DNA of 64,000 nucleotides from positions 310,001-374,000 of the forward strand of contig NZ_CP102850.1 of the NCBI RefSeq assembly GCF_024734075.1, read 5' to 3'. Under the pieces are notes generated by a model that saw only the letters and a program-made list of their open reading frames with translations, searched no databases and had not been told where the DNA came from. Source of the DNA: Gordonia mangrovi. Lineage in GTDB: Bacteria > Actinomycetota > Actinomycetes > Mycobacteriales > Mycobacteriaceae. The first letter of the stretch is position 1. Each line of letters begins with the position of its first letter. This document shows positions 6,773 to 29,832 of this stretch, piece by piece. Position numbers and translations under genes: made by a program.

Positions 6773-6778
6773 TAGAGT
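6773..6778 (+). promoter_or_regulatory. -10 hexamer TAGAGT of fbiA
   Basis: TAGAGT lies seven bases before GTG 6786. It argues for GTG 6786 as the start of FbiA, rather than the GTG at 6777 that overlaps the hexamer. Confidence 0.5.
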
Positions 6779-6785
6779 GAACAAG

Positions 6786-7826
6786 GTGAGAGTGACGGTC
6801 CTCGTGGGCGGCGTCGGTGGCGCCCGTTTCCTGTCCGGCGTGCGGGAGATATTCGGCCCCACACCCTTTCCCGATCCGGTCGACGATGCCGATGGCCGGG
6901 AGCACGAGGTGACCGCGATCGTCAACGTCGGCGACGATGCCTGGATGCACGGTGTGCGCATCTGCCCGGACCTCGACACCTGCATGTACACCCTCGGCGG
7001 CGGCATCGACACCACCCGCGGCTGGGGCCGGACGGGCGAGACGTGGCACGCCAAGGAGGAGTTGGCCGTTTATGGTGCCGACCCGGATTGGTTCGGCCTC
7101 GGAGACCGCGACCTGGCCACCCATCTGATCCGCACCCAGATGCTCGATGCCGGCTACCGACTCTCCGACGTGACCGCCGCCCTCTGTCGCCGATGGCAGC
7201 CCGGGGTGCGCTTGCTGCCGGCCACCGACGACCGGCACGAGACCCATGTGGTGGTGGCCAAACCCGACGGCGACGAGGGCGACCGGGTGGCGATCCACTT
7301 CCAGGAATGGTGGGTCCGCCATCGCGCCCGCATACCCACCTTCGGATTCGCACAGGTCGGCTCGGACGACACCCGGGCGGCACCGGGGGTCGCCGAGGCG
7401 ATCGCCGACGCCGACGTCGTACTGATCGCCCCGAGCAATCCGGTGGTCAGCATCGGCGCAATCGTGAGCGTGCCCGGCATCCGCAGTGCGCTGCGGACCA
7501 CATCCGCGCCGGTGGTCGGCATCTCTCCGGTGATCGACAATCGGCCGCTGCGTGGGATGGCAGATGAATGCCTGTCGGTGATCGGTGTGCAGTCCTCCGC
7601 AGAAGCCATCGCGGCCCACTACGGCGCCCGCAGCGGCAACGGAATCCTCGATGGCTGGCTCGTGGCCGAGGGCGACCACGCCGTCGTCGACGGCATCGCC
7701 ATCGGCTCGGCGCCGTTGTTGATGAGCGATCCGGCCGCCACCGCGCAGATGGTGCGCGATGCGTGTGCACTCGTGGGCGTCACCACTCCCGACGTGAACC
7801 TCGGCCCCGCCGGAGAGCCGTCATGA
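6786..7826 (+). CDS. fbiA: Phosphoenolpyruvyl/2-phospho-L-lactate transferase FbiA
   Basis: FbiA (CofD family, 346 residues from GTG 6786) joins the deazaflavin Fo to a phosphoenolpyruvyl or phospholactyl group, giving (dehydro)F420-0. The opening [13 protein letters not shown] is the family's nucleotide-binding loop, and [19 protein letters not shown] followed by [18 protein letters not shown] forms the Fo/phosphate site. Length is normal for the family. The stop overlaps the fbiB start (ATGA), so the two are translationally coupled, as in mycobacteria. An alternative GTG at 6777 would add three residues. Confidence 0.93.
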
Positions 7827-9181
7827 CCGGTGAAACCGGCCCGGTCGATCACGCGGCGACCGCCGGCCTCGAGATCCGGCCGGTCACCGGCCTCGGCGAG
7901 TTCGCGGCCGGTATGGACATCGCCGCCGAACTCCTCGCCGCGGCCCCGTGGCTCGCCGACGGCGACGTGATCGTGGCGACCAGCAAGATCTTCTCCAAGG
8001 TCGAGGGGCGCATGGTGACCGCGCCGACCGACCCCGATGAGCGAGATGCCCTGCGCCGCCGGTTGATCGAGGCAGAATCGGTGCGGGTTCTGGCGCGCAA
8101 GAACCGAACCCTGATCACCGAGAACCGCAACGGCCTCGTGCAGGCCGCCGCCGGGGTCGACGGCTCAAACGTCGCAACCGACCGACTCGCACTGCTGCCG
8201 GTCGACCCGGACGCCAGCGCGGCCGCCCTCCGGAGTCGCCTCCGGGAGCTGGCCGCGCTCGACGTGGCGGTGGTGGTCACCGACACCATGGGCCGGGCCT
8301 GGCGCAACGGCCAGACCGACGTCGCGATCGGTTCAGCGGGGGTGGCCGTCTCCCATCCCTATGACGGCCGCGTCGATGCGCACGGCAACCCATTGATCGT
8401 CACCGACATCGCCGTCGCCGACGAGATCGCCGCTGCGGCCGACCTCGTCAAGGGCAAACTCGGCGGCGTGCCCGTGGCGGTGATCCGTGGCCTGGATCCC
8501 ATCGACGATGGTTCGCGAGCGGCCGACCTGGTCCGGCCCGCCGAGGAGGATCTGTTCCGGCTCGGCACCGCCGAGGCGATCGAGGTCGGCCGACGCGAGG
8601 CGCTGCTGACCCGCCGATCGGTCCGGTCGTTCGCGCCCGAACCCATCGACAGCGAGATCATGCACGCCGCGTTCGCGGATGCGTTGACCGCGCCCGCCCC
8701 CCACCACACCCATCCCGTCCGCTTCGTCTGGGTGCGGTCCGGGGATCGACGAGCGCAGCTGCTCGACGAGATGCGGCAGGCCTGGCGTGTCGATCTGGAG
8801 GGCGATGCGAAGTCACCGGAGTCGGTGACCAGGCGACTGAACCGAGGCCAGATCCTTTACGACGCACCGGAGCTGGTGATCCCCTTCCTGGTTCCCGACG
8901 GCGCCCACGAGTATCCCGACGCGCGACGCAACGCCGCCGAGCACACGATGTTCACCGTCGCCGCGGGCGGCGCGGTGAACGCACTGCTGGTGGCGTTGTC
9001 GGTGCGCGGGGTCGGCAGCTGCTGGATCGGTTCCACCATCTTCGCACCGGAGGTGGTGCGCCGGGTGCTCGAGCTCGACGCCCGCTGGCACCCGCTCGGT
9101 GCGGTCGCCGTCGGCCGACCGCTGACCGACAGCCCGACGCGCGCACCCGCCGACACCGCGGGCCTGGTGATCGAGCGATGA
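7823..9181 (+). CDS. fbiB: Bifunctional F420:L-glutamate ligase / dehydro-F420-0 reductase FbiB
   Basis: The 452-residue protein has the two FbiB domains. Residues 1 to about 250 are a CofE-type F420-0:gamma-glutamyl ligase, with [35 protein letters not shown] and [16 protein letters not shown]. The remainder is an FMN-dependent nitroreductase fold starting at [10 protein letters not shown], which in mycobacteria reduces dehydro-F420-0. Together they add the oligoglutamate tail and finish the coenzyme. The start overlaps fbiA and the stop overlaps the NUDIX gene, both as ATGA, giving a tight three-gene operon. Confidence 0.93.
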
Positions 9182-22590: not shown

Positions 22591-22631
22591 CCGCTGACTG
22601 TGCCCGGTCTTCCACCGGGCACAGTCAGCGG
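22591..22631. terminator. Bidirectional hairpin between dapD and dapC
   Basis: A perfect 18-bp stem (22591-22608 with 22614-22631) closes a 5-base loop (CTTCC). It starts right after the dapD stop and contains the dapC stop codon inside its right arm. There is no T-run, as is common for actinobacterial terminators. Confidence 0.8.
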
Positions 22632-23746
22632 TTCAGACGCTCGGCGGCCGCGGCGACGCGTTCGTCGGTCGCGGTGAGTGCGATGCGCACATGCTGCGCG
22701 CCCGCGGGGCCGTAGAAGTCGCCGGGTGCTGCGAGGATGCCGCGGTCGGCGAGCCAATCCAGGGTGGTGCGCGAATCCTCGTCCCGGGTGGCCCACAGAT
22801 ACAGGCCGGCCTCCGAGTGGTCGACCCGGAACCCGGCCGAGGTGACCGCGGTGCGCAACACTTCACGGCGGGCCCGGTAGCGCTCGTGCTGGACGCGCGC
22901 GTGCTCATCGTCGTCGAGGGCGGCCACCATCGCGCCCTGGATGGGGAACGGGACCATCATCCCGGCATGCTTGCGGACCGCGAGCAGTTCGCCGATCAGT
23001 TCCCGGTCGCCGGCAAGAAATCCCGCGCGGTAGGACGCAAGGTTGGAGACCTTCGACAGGGAATGCACCGCGATGAGGCCGCGGTGATCCCCGCCGCTGA
23101 CGCGGGGATCGAGGATCGAGTAGGCCTCGCCCTCCCACGTCAGGCCGAGGTAACACTCGTCGGACACCACGATCGTGCCGCGTTCACGGGCCCATTCGAC
23201 GACTTTGCGCAGGTGGTCGATGCCGAGCACCTTGCCCGTGGGGTTGGATGGCGAGTTCAGGAACAGCAGCGCCGGCGCAGTGGGGCCGAGCTGTACAGTC
23301 GAATCCGCCCGCACGGCTGTGGCGCCGGCCAGCAGCGCCCCGACCTCGTAGGTCGGGTAGGCGACCTCGGGGATCACCACCACGTCGCCGGCGCCGATAC
23401 CGAGCATCGACACCATCCCGGCGATCACCTCTTTGGTGCCGATGACGGGCAGGATCGAGGACTCGTCGAGACCGGTGGTCCCGAACCGGCGTTCCAGTGC
23501 ACCCACTGCGGCGGCACGGAGTTGCGGGGTTCCGATCGTCGTCGGGTAACCGGGGAACTCCGCGGAGGCTGCCAACGCCGCGCGGATCACGGGGTCGACC
23601 GGATCGACCGGTGTCCCGACCGACAGGTCGACGATGCCGCCGGCGTGTTCGGCGGCTCGCGCGCGGGCAGCGCCGATGGTGTCCCAGGGGAAGTCCGGGA
23701 GTACCGAGCTGACCCGCCGTCGTGTCGCGAAACCAGACGTGCTCAC
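22625..23746 (-). CDS. dapC: Succinyldiaminopimelate transaminase
   Basis: This fold-type I PLP aminotransferase (373 residues) converts N-succinyl-2-amino-6-ketopimelate to N-succinyl-diaminopimelate, the step between DapD and DapE. Key features are DLSVGTPVDPVDP, LNSPSNPTGKVL, the DECYLGL segment and the PLP lysine in HSLSKVSNLASYRAGF. It starts at GTG 23746, nine bases after the fdxC stop, so ferredoxin and transaminase are co-transcribed, as in Rv1177-Rv1178. Confidence 0.9.
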   Translation of the reverse strand: MSTSGFATRRRVSSVLPDFPWDTIGAARARAAEHAGGIVDLSVGTPVDPVDPVIRAALAASAEFPGYPTTIGTPQLRAAAVGALERRFGTTGLDESSILPVIGTKEVIAGMVSMLGIGAGDVVVIPEVAYPTYEVGALLAGATAVRADSTVQLGPTAPALLFLNSPSNPTGKVLGIDHLRKVVEWARERGTIVVSDECYLGLTWEGEAYSILDPRVSGGDHRGLIAVHSLSKVSNLASYRAGFLAGDRELIGELLAVRKHAGMMVPFPIQGAMVAALDDDEHARVQHERYRARREVLRTAVTSAGFRVDHSEAGLYLWATRDEDSRTTLDWLADRGILAAPGDFYGPAGAQHVRIALTATDERVAAAAERLNR

Positions 23747-23755
23747 GGGGTCAGG

Positions 23756-24082
23756 TCATTCCTCTTCGTTCATCGGCGGCAGCCCCTTGATGAACGCGGG
23801 GTCGGCCTCGGTCTTGCCGACCTTGCTCGCGCCACCCGGCGAGCCCAGGTCGTCGAAGAAGTCGGCGTTGGCGCTGACGTATGGCTCCCACTCGTCGGGC
23901 ACATCATCTTCGTAGAAGATCGCCTCGACCGGACACACCGGCTCACAGGCACCACAGTCGACACACTCGTCGGGCTGGATGTAGAGCATCCGGTCCCCTT
24001 CGTAGATGCAGTCCACCGGGCATTCCTCGACGCAGGCCTTGTCCAAGACGTCGACACAAGGCTCCGCGATGATGTAGGTCAC
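23756..24082 (-). CDS. fdxC: Seven-iron ferredoxin FdxC
   Basis: A 108-residue ferredoxin with an N-terminal CVDVLDKACVEECPVDC cluster region and a full CVDCGACEPVCPVEA motif, as expected for a [3Fe-4S][4Fe-4S] protein. The acidic tail GASKVGKTEADPAFIKGLPP is typical of mycobacterial FdxC. GTG 24082 is favoured because MTYIIAEPC is the conserved opening and GAAGGAG lies six to eight bases upstream; GTG 24085 is adjacent. It is an electron carrier for P450s or other redox enzymes. Confidence 0.92.
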   Translation of the reverse strand: MTYIIAEPCVDVLDKACVEECPVDCIYEGDRMLYIQPDECVDCGACEPVCPVEAIFYEDDVPDEWEPYVSANADFFDDLGSPGGASKVGKTEADPAFIKGLPPMNEEE

Positions 24083-24603
24083 CACACTCTCCTTCGCTGC
24101 AAAACACTCGCGGCCCGGCAACGATCGCGGTCACGGGGGTCGTCGCCGGGGTCGGTGCGTGGGCTGAACGCACCGGATCACGGACCGCGCGGCGACCACG
24201 AACGATCGGGCCACATACACATGAGTCCGTGTCCAAGAGTATCGGGCGGCCGCCCCCCGGTTCGACACCCGCCCCCGTTCCATGAGGCCAGACGTAATGC
24301 GGATCACACCATGGCCTATCGTTGCGGTCGCTGCGCGTCCAATCCTCGACGGCGTGTACGACCGCCTACTGCCGCCTCGCTGGGACGCGGTCGAGCGGTG
24401 GACGGCACCGCTGGCCTCGAGTGTCCGTGCGTATTCACCGCGGCTGACGGCCATGTCCTTCTACGACGTGGTCGGCCCGGTAGATTGCGCCGTTCCTGTA
24501 CCGAACTGACCGACCGACCGACCGGAGTGATCGACATGCCGGCGCCGCCGGGTTCCGTCGGCGGGATTTGGGGTTCCGTCGGCGGGACGGCGGGCGGGCC
24601 CGA
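24083..24603. other. Intergenic region between fdxC and cofG
   Basis: This 521-bp gap holds no gene I can support. A 75-codon frame at 24285-24509 has no family features and no ribosome site. The fdxC promoter should lie on its left side. Near the cofG end there is a GACC-type tetranucleotide run (24507-24524) and a 16-bp direct repeat (24551-24566 and 24572-24587). Confidence 0.55.
24551..24587. repeat. 16-bp direct repeat downstream of cofG
   Basis: GGTTCCGTCGGCGGGA occurs at 24551-24566 and again at 24572-24587, five bases apart, just past the cofG stop. Confidence 0.7.
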
Positions 24604-25848
24604 TCAGGCGACGGCGGGCCAGGGACGGCCCTGTGGATGGACCTCGGCGGCGAGACCGGTCGTGGGATCGGCCACCGCCGCGACGTGATCGGCCAGCGAC
24701 GCATCGATCCAGTCCGCACCGGCGAGCACATAGGGCGGCTGCGCGGTGATGCGTTCGGTGAGCACATGGCCCATCTGCGCGGTGATGTCGGCGAGCGCGT
24801 CGAGGTTGGGCCACGGACGCTCCGGGTTCACATGATCGGGGGTCAGCGGTGACACGCCGCCCCAGTCGTCGACACCGGATGCGATGAGCGCCGCACACTC
24901 CCGGGCCGACACCAGATTCGGCGGCGCCTGCACCCGCATCTGCGGTCCCAGCACAATTCGGGCGACGGCGACCGCGGCCAGGAACTCGGTCATCTCGGCG
25001 TCCGGTGCGCCGCGCATCGCAGTGTCCGGCTTGGCCCGGAAGTTCTGCACGATCACTTCCTGGATGTGGCCGTGCGCCCGATGTACGTCGCGGATGGCCA
25101 GGAGGGATTCGGCCCGCTCCCCCACGGTCTCGCCGATCCCGACGAGAATGCCGGTGGTGAACGGGATGCGCTCGGCGCCGGCGTCGTGCAGCACCTGCAG
25201 TCGGACGAGTGGGTCCTTGTCCGGGCTGCCGTAGTGGGCCTGCCCCTTCTCGGTGAACAGTCGACGCGAGGTGGTCTCGAGCATCATCCCCATCGACGGC
25301 GCGACGGGTCGCAGCGCGCGCATCTCCTCGGCACTCATCACGCCCGGGTTCAGATGCGGAAGCAGGCCCGTCTCCTCCAGGACGGCCACCGCCGCGGCCC
25401 GGACGTAGTCGAGCGTGGAGTCGTGGCCGCGAGCGGCGAGCCACTCGCCCGCCTGCGCCCACCGCGCCTCCGGGCGGTCGCCGAGCGTGAACAGTGCCTC
25501 TTTGCAACCGAGCGCGGCTCCGTTGCGGGCGATCTCGAGTACCTCGTCGATCTCGAGATACATGCCGTGGCCCGCACGGGTGAGCTTGCCCGGCACCGTG
25601 ACGAAGGTGCAGTAGTGACACCGATCTCGGCACAGCCGGGTGAGGGGGACGAACACCTTGCGGGAGTAGGTGATCTGGCGGTCGCGGCCGACCTCCGCGA
25701 GCCCCTCGTCGCGCAGCCCCGACGCGATCTCCTGCACCGCGGTCAGATCCTCCCCGGAGCACGTCAGCAACGCCGCGGCCTGTGCCACATCGAGATCCGC
25801 GCCGTTGCGGGCGGCGTCGAGTGCTTCGGCGATCGTCTTGGCTGTCAC
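24604..25848 (-). CDS. cofG: 7,8-didemethyl-8-hydroxy-5-deazariboflavin synthase subunit CofG
   Basis: CofG is the radical SAM half of Fo synthase that closes the deazaflavin ring. The 414-residue protein keeps the cluster motif [10 protein letters not shown] (CxxxCxYC) near residue 80. It also has [56 protein letters not shown], and [19 protein letters not shown]. The start is GTG 25848, overlapping the upstream monooxygenase stop (GTGA) with GGAGG ten bases away. It is a stand-alone CofG; in mycobacteria this domain is the N-terminal half of the fused FbiC at this chromosomal position. Confidence 0.9.
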
Positions 25849-27350
25849 GGGTTTCGACCTCCCTCGTCGACGGGTCGGGACTCGATCAGATACGGCTGCG
25901 GATCGAAGGTGCCGTTGCGTTCCCGGAAGGATGCGGCGGTGCCGGGCCACAGCAGGGTGAGCCGCCCACTTCGGGGATCCACGTACCAGCTGTTGCATCC
26001 GGTCAGCCACACCGTCGAGGCGCTGCGCTGATCGATCTCGCGCGTGTAGGCCTGCTCTGCCGCAGCGGTGACTTCCATCGCGTCGAAGGTGTTGCGCGCC
26101 ATGTGATCCAGCGCGCCCAGGACATAGCCGAGCTGGGTCTCGATCATGTAGATCGCCGAGTTGTGGCCCAGTGCCGCGTTGGGTCCGTCGAGGACGAACA
26201 TGTTCGGGAAACCACTGACCGCGGTGGAGGCGAACGAGACCATTCCCGCCGACCAGTGATCGGAGAGGACCTCACCGTGGCGCCCCTGTACGCGGACCGC
26301 GACGGGCAGCCGGGTCGCCTCGAAACCGGTGGCCATCACCAGCACATCGAGATCGTAGGTGTGCCCACTGACCGCGCGCGCCTTGCACTCGACGACCGAG
26401 TCGAGTGCGGTCGGCTCGAACACGACGTTCGGGCGTTGCAGGGCCGGATAGAAATCATCGCTGAGAAGGATTCGCTTGCAACCGATCTCGTAGTCCGGAG
26501 TGAGTGCCGCCCGCAGTCCCGGCGCCGCGACCTGCCGGCGCAGATGCCCGAGGGCACGATCGCGAATGGCGTCGATGTCGGGCTGCAATCCCAATCGCTG
26601 CCGGAAGGCCCGGTCGGCGTCGACGAGCATCTGTTCGCGCACGGCGCGCGCATGGTCGGGTACGGCGAGCCGGGCTCGTTCCTCGGCGGTGAATCGCCGG
26701 TCTTCGCGAGGCACCACATACGGAGGAGTCCGGGAGAACACGACCAGTTCGTCGGCGTCCGCGGCGAGATGCGGGATCACCTGCACGGCGGAGGCGCCGG
26801 TGCCCACCACACCGATCCGTTCACCGCCGGTGAGCAGGTCGGAACGCCACTGGGCCGTGTGAACGACTGTGCCGGTGAAGGATTCGAGACCCTCGATATC
26901 GGGTACGTGCGGGTCGGAGAGCCGTCCGACGGCCATCACCAGGACCCGGGCGTGTACCGATCCCGCAGTGGTCGCTATCTCCCACCGGGAGGTGGAGTCG
27001 ACCCAGCGAGCATTCCGGAGTTCACAGCCGAATCTGATGTGCGGGGTCAGCCCCTCGTCCAGCACCGTCTGTTCGAGATAGCGGCGGATCTCGGCTCCTC
27101 GGGGATACAGCGTTTCCCACTCCCACGGGGGCCGGAAGGAGAACGAGTACAGCTGCGCCGGAATGTCACAGGCGATGCCGGGGTAGGTGTTGTCGCGCCA
27201 GGTTCCGCCGACGCCGGTGGCACGTTCGAGTACCACGAACGACTCACGCCCACGCCGGGCCAACTGCGTGGCCATGCCGATGCCGGCGAATCCGGCACCG
27301 ACGATCGCCACATCGATGACGTGCGGCATGGCGTCCGGCACCCCGCTCAC
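25845..27350 (-). CDS. Flavin-containing (Baeyer-Villiger type) monooxygenase
   Basis: The 501-residue protein has an FAD-binding GAGFAGIG near residue 18, the class B monooxygenase fingerprint [11 protein letters not shown] (F-x-G-x3-H-x3-W), and the NADPH-binding [11 protein letters not shown]. It also has the late [10 protein letters not shown] segment. Such enzymes insert oxygen next to ketones or oxidise heteroatoms using NADPH and O2. Its start overlaps the cofH-like stop and its stop overlaps the cofG start, both as GTGA, so it is translated as the middle gene of that operon. A monooxygenase between Fo-synthase genes is unexpected; its substrate is unknown. Confidence 0.88.
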
Positions 27351-28471
27351 CGACGAACCTGCGGAATCGGTATCTGTCGCTCCACGGGCGGGTCGGCGTA
27401 GCCGGTGGTTCGTTGTCTCGGGGTGCGACCGGTTCGAGCGGCGAGATCGGCCAGGGTGTCGACGCCGAGCACACGCCCGGCCTCCTGCCCGGCGGCGGGC
27501 ATCAGCTCGCCGTCGATGAGCAGACCGCCGATGTCGTCGGCCCCGCCGGCCAGCAACGCCTCGGTGGTCTCGGGGTCGTGTTTGGTCCAGGCGACCTGAA
27601 TATGGTCGAAGCTGCCCTGGGTGAGCAGTCGGGCCACCGCATGCACGGCGCGGGTCTCACGTCGGGTGGCCCGCGCGGTGGCCGCCTCGCGTAGATGCGG
27701 CGGCGCGTTCGCCGGCAGCATGGGCATCACGATGAGCTCACTGAACCCCCCGGTGCGGCGCTGGATCTCGCACAGCATCCGCAGGTGGGCGACTTGGTGA
27801 TGCGGCGTCTCGACGTGGCCGTAGAGCATCGTCGCCGTGGAGAACAATCCGACCTGGTGGGCGGTTTCGATGGTCGACACCCAGTCGGCCACCGATGGGC
27901 ACGCTCCGCCGGCGAGGTGGGCGCGGACATCGTCGTCGAGGATCTGCGCGGCGGTGCCCGGCACCGAGCCCAGTCCCGCCGCGTGCGCGCGACGGAGGAA
28001 CTCGGTCACTCCGAGTCCCATCCGGGTGGCCGCGTCGCGGACCTCCGGCGGCCGGAACGCGTGCAGATGCAGGTCGGGAGCCGCCGCATGGATGGTGTGC
28101 ACCAGGCGCAGATATCCGTCGTCGGGAGCGTCGACGGGCAGCGGCCCCTGCAGGCAGATCTCGGTGGCACCCAGTGACCGCGCCTCGATGACCAGTTCCT
28201 CGAGGGTGGCAACCTCCGCGCGGCCGGACGCGATGACCGTGGTGTCGAGGTTGCGGTTGACCACGAAGGTGAGATCGTCGCCGCCGGTCACCATCCGGCG
28301 GGTGTCGTCGGCCAGTTCGCAGAGCTGCTCGAGTTCGGCGCCGGACGCACCGAGCAGCGCCACCCACTGTTCATCAGTGAGTGCTGCCGGGTCGTCGGCG
28401 ACGTGACGTAATGCCGCCCGGGCGGCCTGCGCCGTGGCGTGCGCGTCCCGAGCCCACTCCCGCAGGACCAT
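27347..28471 (-). CDS. CofH-like protein lacking the radical SAM cysteines
   Basis: The 374-residue protein follows the C-terminal half of FbiC (CofH) through VVNRN, GATEICLQG, HLHAFRPPEVRDAATRMGL, SVPGTAAQILDDDVR, TATMLYGHVETPHHQVAHL, DHIQVAWTKHD, GADDIGG and RQRTTGYADPP. Where CofH has its CxxxCxxC cluster loop directly after NRNINFTN, this protein reads NRNLDTTVIASGRAEVATLEE: the loop is shortened and no cysteine is present. The few cysteines elsewhere do not form a cluster motif. It should therefore not bind a [4Fe-4S] cluster or make the SAM radical. It leads an operon with the monooxygenase and cofG and has its own TAGAGT hexamer. It may be a scaffold, a substrate-binding subunit or a new activity. 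Confidence 0.82.
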   Translation of the reverse strand: MVLREWARDAHATAQAARAALRHVADDPAALTDEQWVALLGASGAELEQLCELADDTRRMVTGGDDLTFVVNRNLDTTVIASGRAEVATLEELVIEARSLGATEICLQGPLPVDAPDDGYLRLVHTIHAAAPDLHLHAFRPPEVRDAATRMGLGVTEFLRRAHAAGLGSVPGTAAQILDDDVRAHLAGGACPSVADWVSTIETAHQVGLFSTATMLYGHVETPHHQVAHLRMLCEIQRRTGGFSELIVMPMLPANAPPHLREAATARATRRETRAVHAVARLLTQGSFDHIQVAWTKHDPETTEALLAGGADDIGGLLIDGELMPAAGQEAGRVLGVDTLADLAARTGRTPRQRTTGYADPPVERQIPIPQVRR

Positions 28472-28537: not shown

Positions 28538-28912
28538 TCAGGTGTCGTCGGGGGCCGGCAGCCGGCCAGACCGGACCAGCACGAACGGCAGACCTGCGCC
28601 GATCGCGAGCAGACCCAGGGTCGGCAGCATCAGCGCACCGTCCGGTGAGAGCACCACGTCGCCGCCCGGGCCGGGCAGCGCACCGACGACGAGGGCCAGC
28701 AGCCAGGCCAACAGTGGAAGATAGCGCGCCGGCCCGTCGCTGATCGCCGCCGTGAGCCACAGCAGCACACAGTTGACGATCCCGGCGAGCACCGCCGCCA
28801 CCGGGAAGGCGACCCCGCCGACACGCAGGTAGGCGAAGGCCACCGACAGCAGACCGACGACGAAACCGTCCACCACCAGCAACGCCAACAAGAAGCGGTC
28901 GACCGGGCGCAT
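28538..28912 (-). CDS. Conserved membrane protein (Rv1171 type)
   Basis: A 124-residue protein with four predicted membrane segments (about residues 6-28, 34-56, 65-80 and 93-111) and short loops. No enzymatic motif is visible. Its ATG at 28912 shares one base with the mshB stop (TGATG), so it is translationally coupled to mycothiol synthesis. Position matches Rv1171 next to mshB (Rv1170). Function is unknown. Confidence 0.75.
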   Translation of the reverse strand: MRPVDRFLLALLVVDGFVVGLLSVAFAYLRVGGVAFPVAAVLAGIVNCVLLWLTAAISDGPARYLPLLAWLLALVVGALPGPGGDVVLSPDGALMLPTLGLLAIGAGLPFVLVRSGRLPAPDDT

Positions 28913-29832
28913 CAGTCGAGTCCGGCGAACAGGTCGGTCTCGCGCTGCCCCGGCTCGGGCCACAGACCGTCGGCCGCCGATGTCAGCACGAAGTGCTCTC
29001 GATCGAGAATGGGTTGCAGGATGTTGTTGGACAGGGCGTATTCGGTCCCGGACGGTGCGACGGTCACCTGGGTGGCATGTGCGCGCAACCCGGCGGCCTT
29101 GCGGTCGACGACGGCACGGACGTCGATCTCGGTGGTGATGGTCTCGTCCGGATGGCTGGGCAGTTCGTCGGCGGCGGGCAGTCGCCAACCACCCGGTACC
29201 CGGCCGGACGCCGCCGACAACCCGGCGTGCAGGGCGGAGCGTTCGGTGATCGACTCGTAGACCTTGGCCGGCGCCGGCAACGGTCGGCCGGCCATCCGGG
29301 CCTCGACCCGTGGCAAGGCCGCGACGGTCGACGCGTGGACGAGCTTGTGGTCGGGATGTCCGTAGGTGCCGGCGTTGTCGTAGGTGACGACGACCTGAGG
29401 GGCGAACGAGACGATCTCGGCGACGACGGTGTCGACGAGATCGTCGAACCCGGCCTGCACCAGCGCTCGCGGATGCTGCGCCGAGGGCGCACCGGCCATC
29501 CCGGAGTCCCGCCAGTGCCCGGCGCCACCGAGAAATCGCGGTCGCAGCGCCGGCCGGCCGGCCGGACTCAACGCGGCCAGGGCACGGGTCAGCTCCAGGA
29601 TGCGGTAGCCACCGAGTTGATCGGCCCCGCCGTCGGCAGCCAGCTGCGCCCACTCGTCGCCGATGACCTCGCCTTCCTCACCGAGGGTGAAGGTCACTAC
29701 GCGCACATCGACGCCCTCGGCGAGGTAGCGGGCGATGGTGCCGCCGGTCATGATCGTCTCGTCGTCGGGGTGTGCGTGCAGCAGTAGCAGTCGCCGGACC
29801 GGATCGTTTGTCATCGCTGCGTCGTTCGTCAT
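28912..29832 (-). CDS. mshB: N-acetyl-GlcN-inositol deacetylase (mycothiol synthesis)
   Basis: MshB removes acetate from GlcNAc-inositol, the second committed step to mycothiol, the main thiol buffer of actinobacteria. The 306-residue LmbE-type metalloenzyme has the zinc motif HAHPDDET (residues 19-26) and the YGHPDHK site that supplies the third ligand. The start ATG 29832 overlaps the lpqW stop (ATGA). The N-terminus has a small duplication (MTNDAAMTND), so ATG 29814 is an alternative start. Confidence 0.93.
   Translation of the reverse strand: MTNDAAMTNDPVRRLLLLHAHPDDETIMTGGTIARYLAEGVDVRVVTFTLGEEGEVIGDEWAQLAADGGADQLGGYRILELTRALAALSPAGRPALRPRFLGGAGHWRDSGMAGAPSAQHPRALVQAGFDDLVDTVVAEIVSFAPQVVVTYDNAGTYGHPDHKLVHASTVAALPRVEARMAGRPLPAPAKVYESITERSALHAGLSAASGRVPGGWRLPAADELPSHPDETITTEIDVRAVVDRKAAGLRAHATQVTVAPSGTEYALSNNILQPILDREHFVLTSAADGLWPEPGQRETDLFAGLD

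Follow-up and report, generated by a model that had tools for sequence, protein, structure and literature searches.

How can a protein of the CofH family take part in FO synthesis when the loop for its radical SAM cluster is missing? The question is raised by the window, a stretch of 64,000 nucleotides from a Gordonia genome (a single contig of 5.39 Mb, 99.99% complete), which encodes a Cys-free CofH homologue, here CofH*, whose best named homologues are from Gordonia. According to the part of the source available to us, canonical CofH cleaves tyrosine with the help of SAM and joins its 4-hydroxybenzyl unit to the diaminouracil (PMC8498797). The features of the window are collected in Table 1.

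Table 1. Features of the window referred to in the text
Feature	Position	Strand	Remarks
cofH* (Cys-free CofH homologue)	27347..28471	-	374 aa; profile match, alignment, fold
Site of deleted radical SAM cluster loop, NRNLDTTVIASGR	28220..28258	-	residues 72-84 of CofH*
BVMO (Baeyer-Villiger-type flavin monooxygenase)	25845..27350	-	GTG start overlaps cofH* stop, GTGA 27347-27350
cofG, separate gene	24604..25848	-	radical SAM motif CRDRCHYC retained; GTG start (inferred) overlaps BVMO stop, GTGA 25845-25848
fbiA/cofD	6777..7826	+	TIGR01819, above cut-off
fbiB	7823..9181	+	exceeds the cut-offs of NF009810 and TIGR03553; start codon deduced from reading frame
Ferredoxin, downstream syntenic anchor	23756..24121	-	NF045480 FdxA_Actino, above cut-off
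DapC (succinyldiaminopimelate transaminase), downstream syntenic anchor	22625..23746	-	TIGR03539, above cut-off
MshB, upstream syntenic anchor	28912..29832	-	TIGR03445, above cut-off

The initial annotation had described this protein as a CofH homologue with a shortened, Cys-free cluster loop in an otherwise intact barrel, and the observation was borne out. CofH* matched the NCBIfam profile TIGR03551 (CofH) with 296.4 bits (E 2.1e-88), yet remained under the curated cut-off of 374.1. The altered loop was present where it had been reported, and an alignment of 128 Cys-free with 115 canonical rows showed VNRN to be retained and the canonical N(I/V)NFTN(V/I)CYTGCRFCAFAQ to be replaced, with gaps at ten columns in 94-100% of the Cys-free rows; in CofH*, VNRN is followed by LDTTVIA. 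For this alignment, loci with a match of less than 320 aa were dropped, as were identical canonical rows (119 reduced to 115); locus L041 is absent from it. CxxxCxxC was found in 0 of 121 proteins (CofH* and the 120 listed of its 1013 homologues), which contained a median of 2 cysteines each. Considering the missing motif alone, one could think of a decaying pseudogene, a frameshift or a sequencing error, but Cys-free open frames recur in 36 of 59 Gordonia genomes and residues are invariant across several genera. We therefore rejected this explanation as hardly credible; a sequencing error hiding a cysteine loop, which the initial annotation had named as the way in which it could be wrong, is excluded by the recurrence of the same form in related genomes, and its reading of loss rather than decay stands. 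Many Cys-free relatives are named 'FO synthase' in public sources despite the missing cluster motif.

On the minus strand, cofH* is followed by the BVMO gene and then by cofG, with GTGA start/stop overlaps at both junctions. CofG scored 466 bits in the profile search (cut-off 213). The initial interpretation is upheld in part: the loss of the loop was correctly seen, while the adjoining BVMO partner had been missed. A predicted model of the BVMO (pLDDT 80.5) gave a Type I Baeyer-Villiger fold (best Foldseek E 4.8e-43), the fold matches including cyclohexanone, phenylacetone and steroid monooxygenases, with 24-30% identity in the listed matches. The protein contains two Rossmann motifs (GAGFAG and GTGASA). 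The Type I Baeyer-Villiger fingerprint is FxGxxxHxxxW(P/D); its core FxGxxxHxxxW was found in 117 of 120 BVMO homologues, and the final P/D in 63 of 120, the window BVMO having R at that position. All 120 contained GCKR or GTKR, whose conserved Lys-Arg pair we take to be the equivalent of Arg337 in phenylacetone monooxygenase.

CofH* is a CofH/MqnE-type barrel without the cluster site, and, as is typical of CofH, it is encoded with CofG in a genome that carries F420 genes. In the alignment described above, 80 columns reached 90% identity or more in each class (among them H135, H137, E143, R183, W197, H205, H229, E245, Q292, W295, K297, D313 and R354), which fits a retained uracil site. Other positions changed with the class: the second glycine of the QGG motif was replaced by P in 88% of the 128 Cys-free rows, HAFS became HAFR, and GHVD became GHVE. 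These changes agree with SAM having been lost and a new partner gained. The constant absence of CxxxCxxC from the 121 proteins and the QGG to QGP replacement would also suit a non-catalytic scaffold or substrate-binding subunit, the chemistry being left to BVMO, or to BVMO with CofG. We consider such a role unlikely, the 80 common columns being seemingly more than a pure scaffold needs.

We then compared the locus among 59 Gordonia genomes. Cys-free cofH, an adjacent BVMO and a separate cofG were found together in 36 (the window's included), the other 23 having a fused FbiC with CYTGCRFC, without such a BVMO in the stretch fetched; there was no mixed class. The cluster motif of CofG was retained in 59/59. 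Genome-wide searches gave a single CofH match in 58/59, the exception (G158) having two, both of the canonical class. Among the matches listed, no BVMO exceeding 41% identity was found genome-wide in the 23 FbiC-type genomes, G187 and G191 having no listed row (weaker E-values). The surroundings were shared: MshB was upstream in 59/59 stretches, ferredoxin downstream in 55/59 and DapC in 54/59 (anchors missing from some stretches are past contig ends, beyond the stretch, or elsewhere), and many loci of Mycobacterium, Rhodococcus and Nocardia showed the same neighbours around FbiC. In Gordonia, CofH* occupies the place of canonical CofH in genomes where CofG and the other F420 genes are kept. 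The initial annotation had also suggested a decoy beside a complete FbiC, which did not hold up, as a search of the window's genome with a CofH query gave no other CofH- or MqnE-like match. The same search led us to reject the futalosine enzymes MqnE/MqnC as stand-ins.

The remaining genes for F420 were also searched for. FbiB was found in 59/59 Gordonia genomes, FbiD in 59/59 (58 above cut-off) and F420-dependent glucose-6-phosphate dehydrogenase (FGD) in 59/59, above cut-off; FbiA and FbiB are both encoded in the window. FbiD was located with NCBIfam TIGR03552, while Pfam CofC PF01983 matched nothing in the genome, which we ascribe to insensitivity of the latter since TIGR03552 found the protein. 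As far as gene content can tell, the presence of FbiA, FbiB, FbiD and FGD shows a need and a capacity for FO, short of production. In the literature, as far as accessible to us, no report came up of a Cys-free strain producing F420.

In 80 loci from named genomes, a relative of the window's BVMO was present at most 1 kb from cofH* in 15/15 Cys-free loci (four of which are Gordonia genomes also counted among the 59) and within the flanks of 0/65 canonical ones. In 150 genomes of the order, BVMO matches of at least 49% identity occurred, among the matches listed, in three (G000, G071 and G058). In G058, the 49% BVMO adjoins the place of CofH; the region was then fetched, and its CofH proved to be Cys-free (43-44% identical) and to group in the Cys-free clade of a 43-row tree. 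The 30 other CofH loci read alongside it, of which 28 were the best-scoring after G000 and G071, all had the cysteines. Altogether, 140 genomes of the order had a CofH match and the loop was read in 34, i.e. these 31 (30 with cysteines and 1 without), G000 and G071 (without) and G065 (with); for the remaining ones the places of BVMO and CofH were compared by eye among the matches listed. Wherever the surroundings of a Cys-free CofH* were read, BVMO lay next to it. Some divergent forms were also noted. G058 has a very divergent fused CofG-CofH* with its BVMO, and six sampled genomes of its genus had no CofH match; G070 and G005 have a divergent canonical CofH with CTFRCTFC or CTFRCGFC replacing CYTGCRFC.

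The pairwise distances of cofH* and BVMO correlated with r 0.87 over 51 loci (four genomes counted twice), 999 shuffles giving at most 0.23. The correlation with cofG was nearly as high (0.84 over 48 loci), and correlated trees would be expected from any linked cassette. In one Gordonia genome (G202), BVMO matches lay in two overlapping frames, due to a frameshift or an assembly error. A comparison of 12 Cys-free loci brought up no further conserved partner gene shared by the majority: the clusters present in at least 5 of them contained only cofH*, BVMO, cofG or overlapping frames of these. A few clusters joined three loci, namely those of Actinomycetospora and one of ORFs from L012, L017 and L037; the L017 member of the latter, though it passes no cut-off, is an F420/FMN-type oxidoreductase of the LLM class. 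L017 itself, on a contig binned as Acidobacteriaceae (Acidobacteriota), has a fused CofG-CofH* and a BVMO followed by this oxidoreductase, and may reflect transfer or a binning error.

Another possibility is that the cassette makes a different tyrosine- or uracil-derived compound, FO being taken from the surroundings by these Gordonia. Two Nocardia genomes (G210 and G215, loci L009 and L026) would agree with this, as they combine a cofH*-BVMO cassette that has no adjoining cofG with an intact canonical FbiC (CYTGCRFC) elsewhere in the genome. At locus L041 (Actinoplanes sp. DH11), the cassette is also present with no cofG nearby, and another product or role is thus possible in these organisms. 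For Gordonia we regard this explanation as highly improbable, because the complementarity with FbiC is exact in 59/59 genomes, with MshB upstream in all, and because CofG, which is of no known use without the product of CofH, keeps its cluster motif in 59/59. Crude gene calling on six loci shed no light on the cassettes of Nocardia and Actinoplanes. The L041 genome has two distant CofH-like matches (30-32%), perhaps MqnE/MqnC.

To follow the origin of the cassette, we compared the trees of CofH and CofG. In a tree of 70 of the 139 loci, the Cys-free forms were one clade with respect to canonical CofH (support 100/100). For CofG, a match of the required length was present in 135 of the 139 loci, and 67 rows were chosen, including Gordonia rows of both classes, 14 of them Cys-free and 12 canonical (a few genomes twice). 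CofG of the split Gordonia type formed one clade nested in the CofG of Gordonia FbiC (support 98/88 and 99/95). Since CofG is nested within Gordonia while CofH* belongs to a separate clade, CofG stayed and the CofH half was exchanged; on the tree evidence, Gordonia CofG is vertically inherited and the CofH half has been replaced. As the Gordonia Cys-free CofG rows are one clade, the 36 genomes represent one event by descent. The CofGs of other Cys-free lineages occupied at least two further places in the tree (one for Actinomycetospora, another for Microbacteriaceae and one Acidobacteriaceae bin), the placement of Kineococcus CofG being weak. Because these CofGs lie in several places, the cassette seems to have acquired different CofG partners on more than one occasion. 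Several of these lineages (L012, L064 and L239, the latter from G058) have cofH* fused to CofG, like an FbiC minus its second cluster.

These data make it quite probable that cofH* and BVMO constitute a two-protein, O2-dependent replacement of the radical SAM CofH half of FO synthase. With the cluster and SAM gone, the reaction requires a different oxidant, and what the linked gene has to offer is O2, via a flavin hydroperoxide. The chemistry can be proposed only tentatively. BVMO (with FAD, NADPH and O2) would oxidise a tyrosine-derived ketone, probably 4-hydroxyphenylpyruvate (the substrate being guessed), the benzyl group migrating; loss of oxalate from the resulting 4-hydroxybenzyl oxalate would give a p-quinone methide, and CofH*, devoid of SAM and cluster but with its old pocket retained, would guide C5 of 5-amino-6-ribitylaminouracil onto it. 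O2 would replace SAM as the two-electron oxidant. Phenylacetone monooxygenase converts phenylacetone to benzyl acetate, and 4-hydroxyphenylpyruvate, if it reacted likewise, would yield 4-hydroxybenzyl oxalate, from which a p-quinone methide is readily obtained. Calculated by hand, C9H16N4O6 + C7H6O gives C16H22N4O7 (382.15 Da), which minus NH3 and 2H is FO (C16H17N3O7), so that the proposed adduct matches the composition that CofG needs.

The same step could also proceed through another oxidation, BVMO acting on the amino group of tyrosine or on the diaminouracil, and CofH* joining the activated partner with tyrosine or the corresponding keto acid. Flavin monooxygenases of BVMO's superfamily can also N-hydroxylate, and the co-occurrence data are compatible with any O2-dependent coupling. 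We find this variant rather doubtful; FxGxxxHxxxW (117/120) and GCKR/GTKR (120/120) favour Baeyer-Villiger chemistry without deciding for it. To return to the p-quinone methide scheme, we put forward with due reserve that a former radical SAM barrel may have become a polar C-C bond catalyst, capturing the p-quinone methide that BVMO would make from 4-hydroxyphenylpyruvate and O2, in an aerobic FO route of maybe a single origin, by which canonical CofH has been displaced in several lineages.

The Cys-free genomes imply a second, O2-using way to the key C-C bond of FO. If this is true, a radical SAM protein has turned into a cluster-free enzyme, for which we know of few other examples, database entries now named FO synthase would need correction, and aerobic production of FO and F420 could become possible. 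The oxygen sensitivity of the known FO synthase is a suspected limit on aerobic production, in the part of the publication accessible to us (PMC11917521). Another (PMC8498797), in its available part, describes FO synthesis as universal, every F420 producer studied using two radical SAM domains. The open-licence literature searched (preprints excluded), insofar as its text was available, reported no Cys-free CofH and no BVMO in FO synthesis.

CofH and the C-terminal half of FbiC (TIGR03551) are homologous to CofH* over nearly its whole length, with about 40-51% identity, and have in common with it the barrel type, the CofG partner and the Gordonia locus; CofH* differs from them by the lack of the [4Fe-4S] cysteine loop, by QGP mostly replacing QGG, by its separate clade, by a score under the curated cut-off and by its adjacent BVMO. 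BVMO has the fold, the two Rossmann motifs, the FxGxxxHxxxW core and the conserved Lys-Arg of Type I enzymes (phenylacetone, cyclohexanone and steroid monooxygenases), but it is only 24-30% identical to the listed fold matches and belongs to an orthologue group of its own, tied to cofH*. MqnE (aminofutalosine synthase, 6xig/6xi9), a menaquinone-pathway enzyme of the radical SAM type, is 27% identical to CofH* in the alignment of the two. Thiamin synthesis offers a precedent, in which the counterpart, ThiO, is a flavin enzyme. This O2-dependent glycine oxidase is found in aerobes as opposed to ThiH, the radical SAM tyrosine lyase, according to the part of the source at our disposal (PMC9046217). 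There the radical protein is wholly absent, whereas here the barrel has been kept and the cluster lost.
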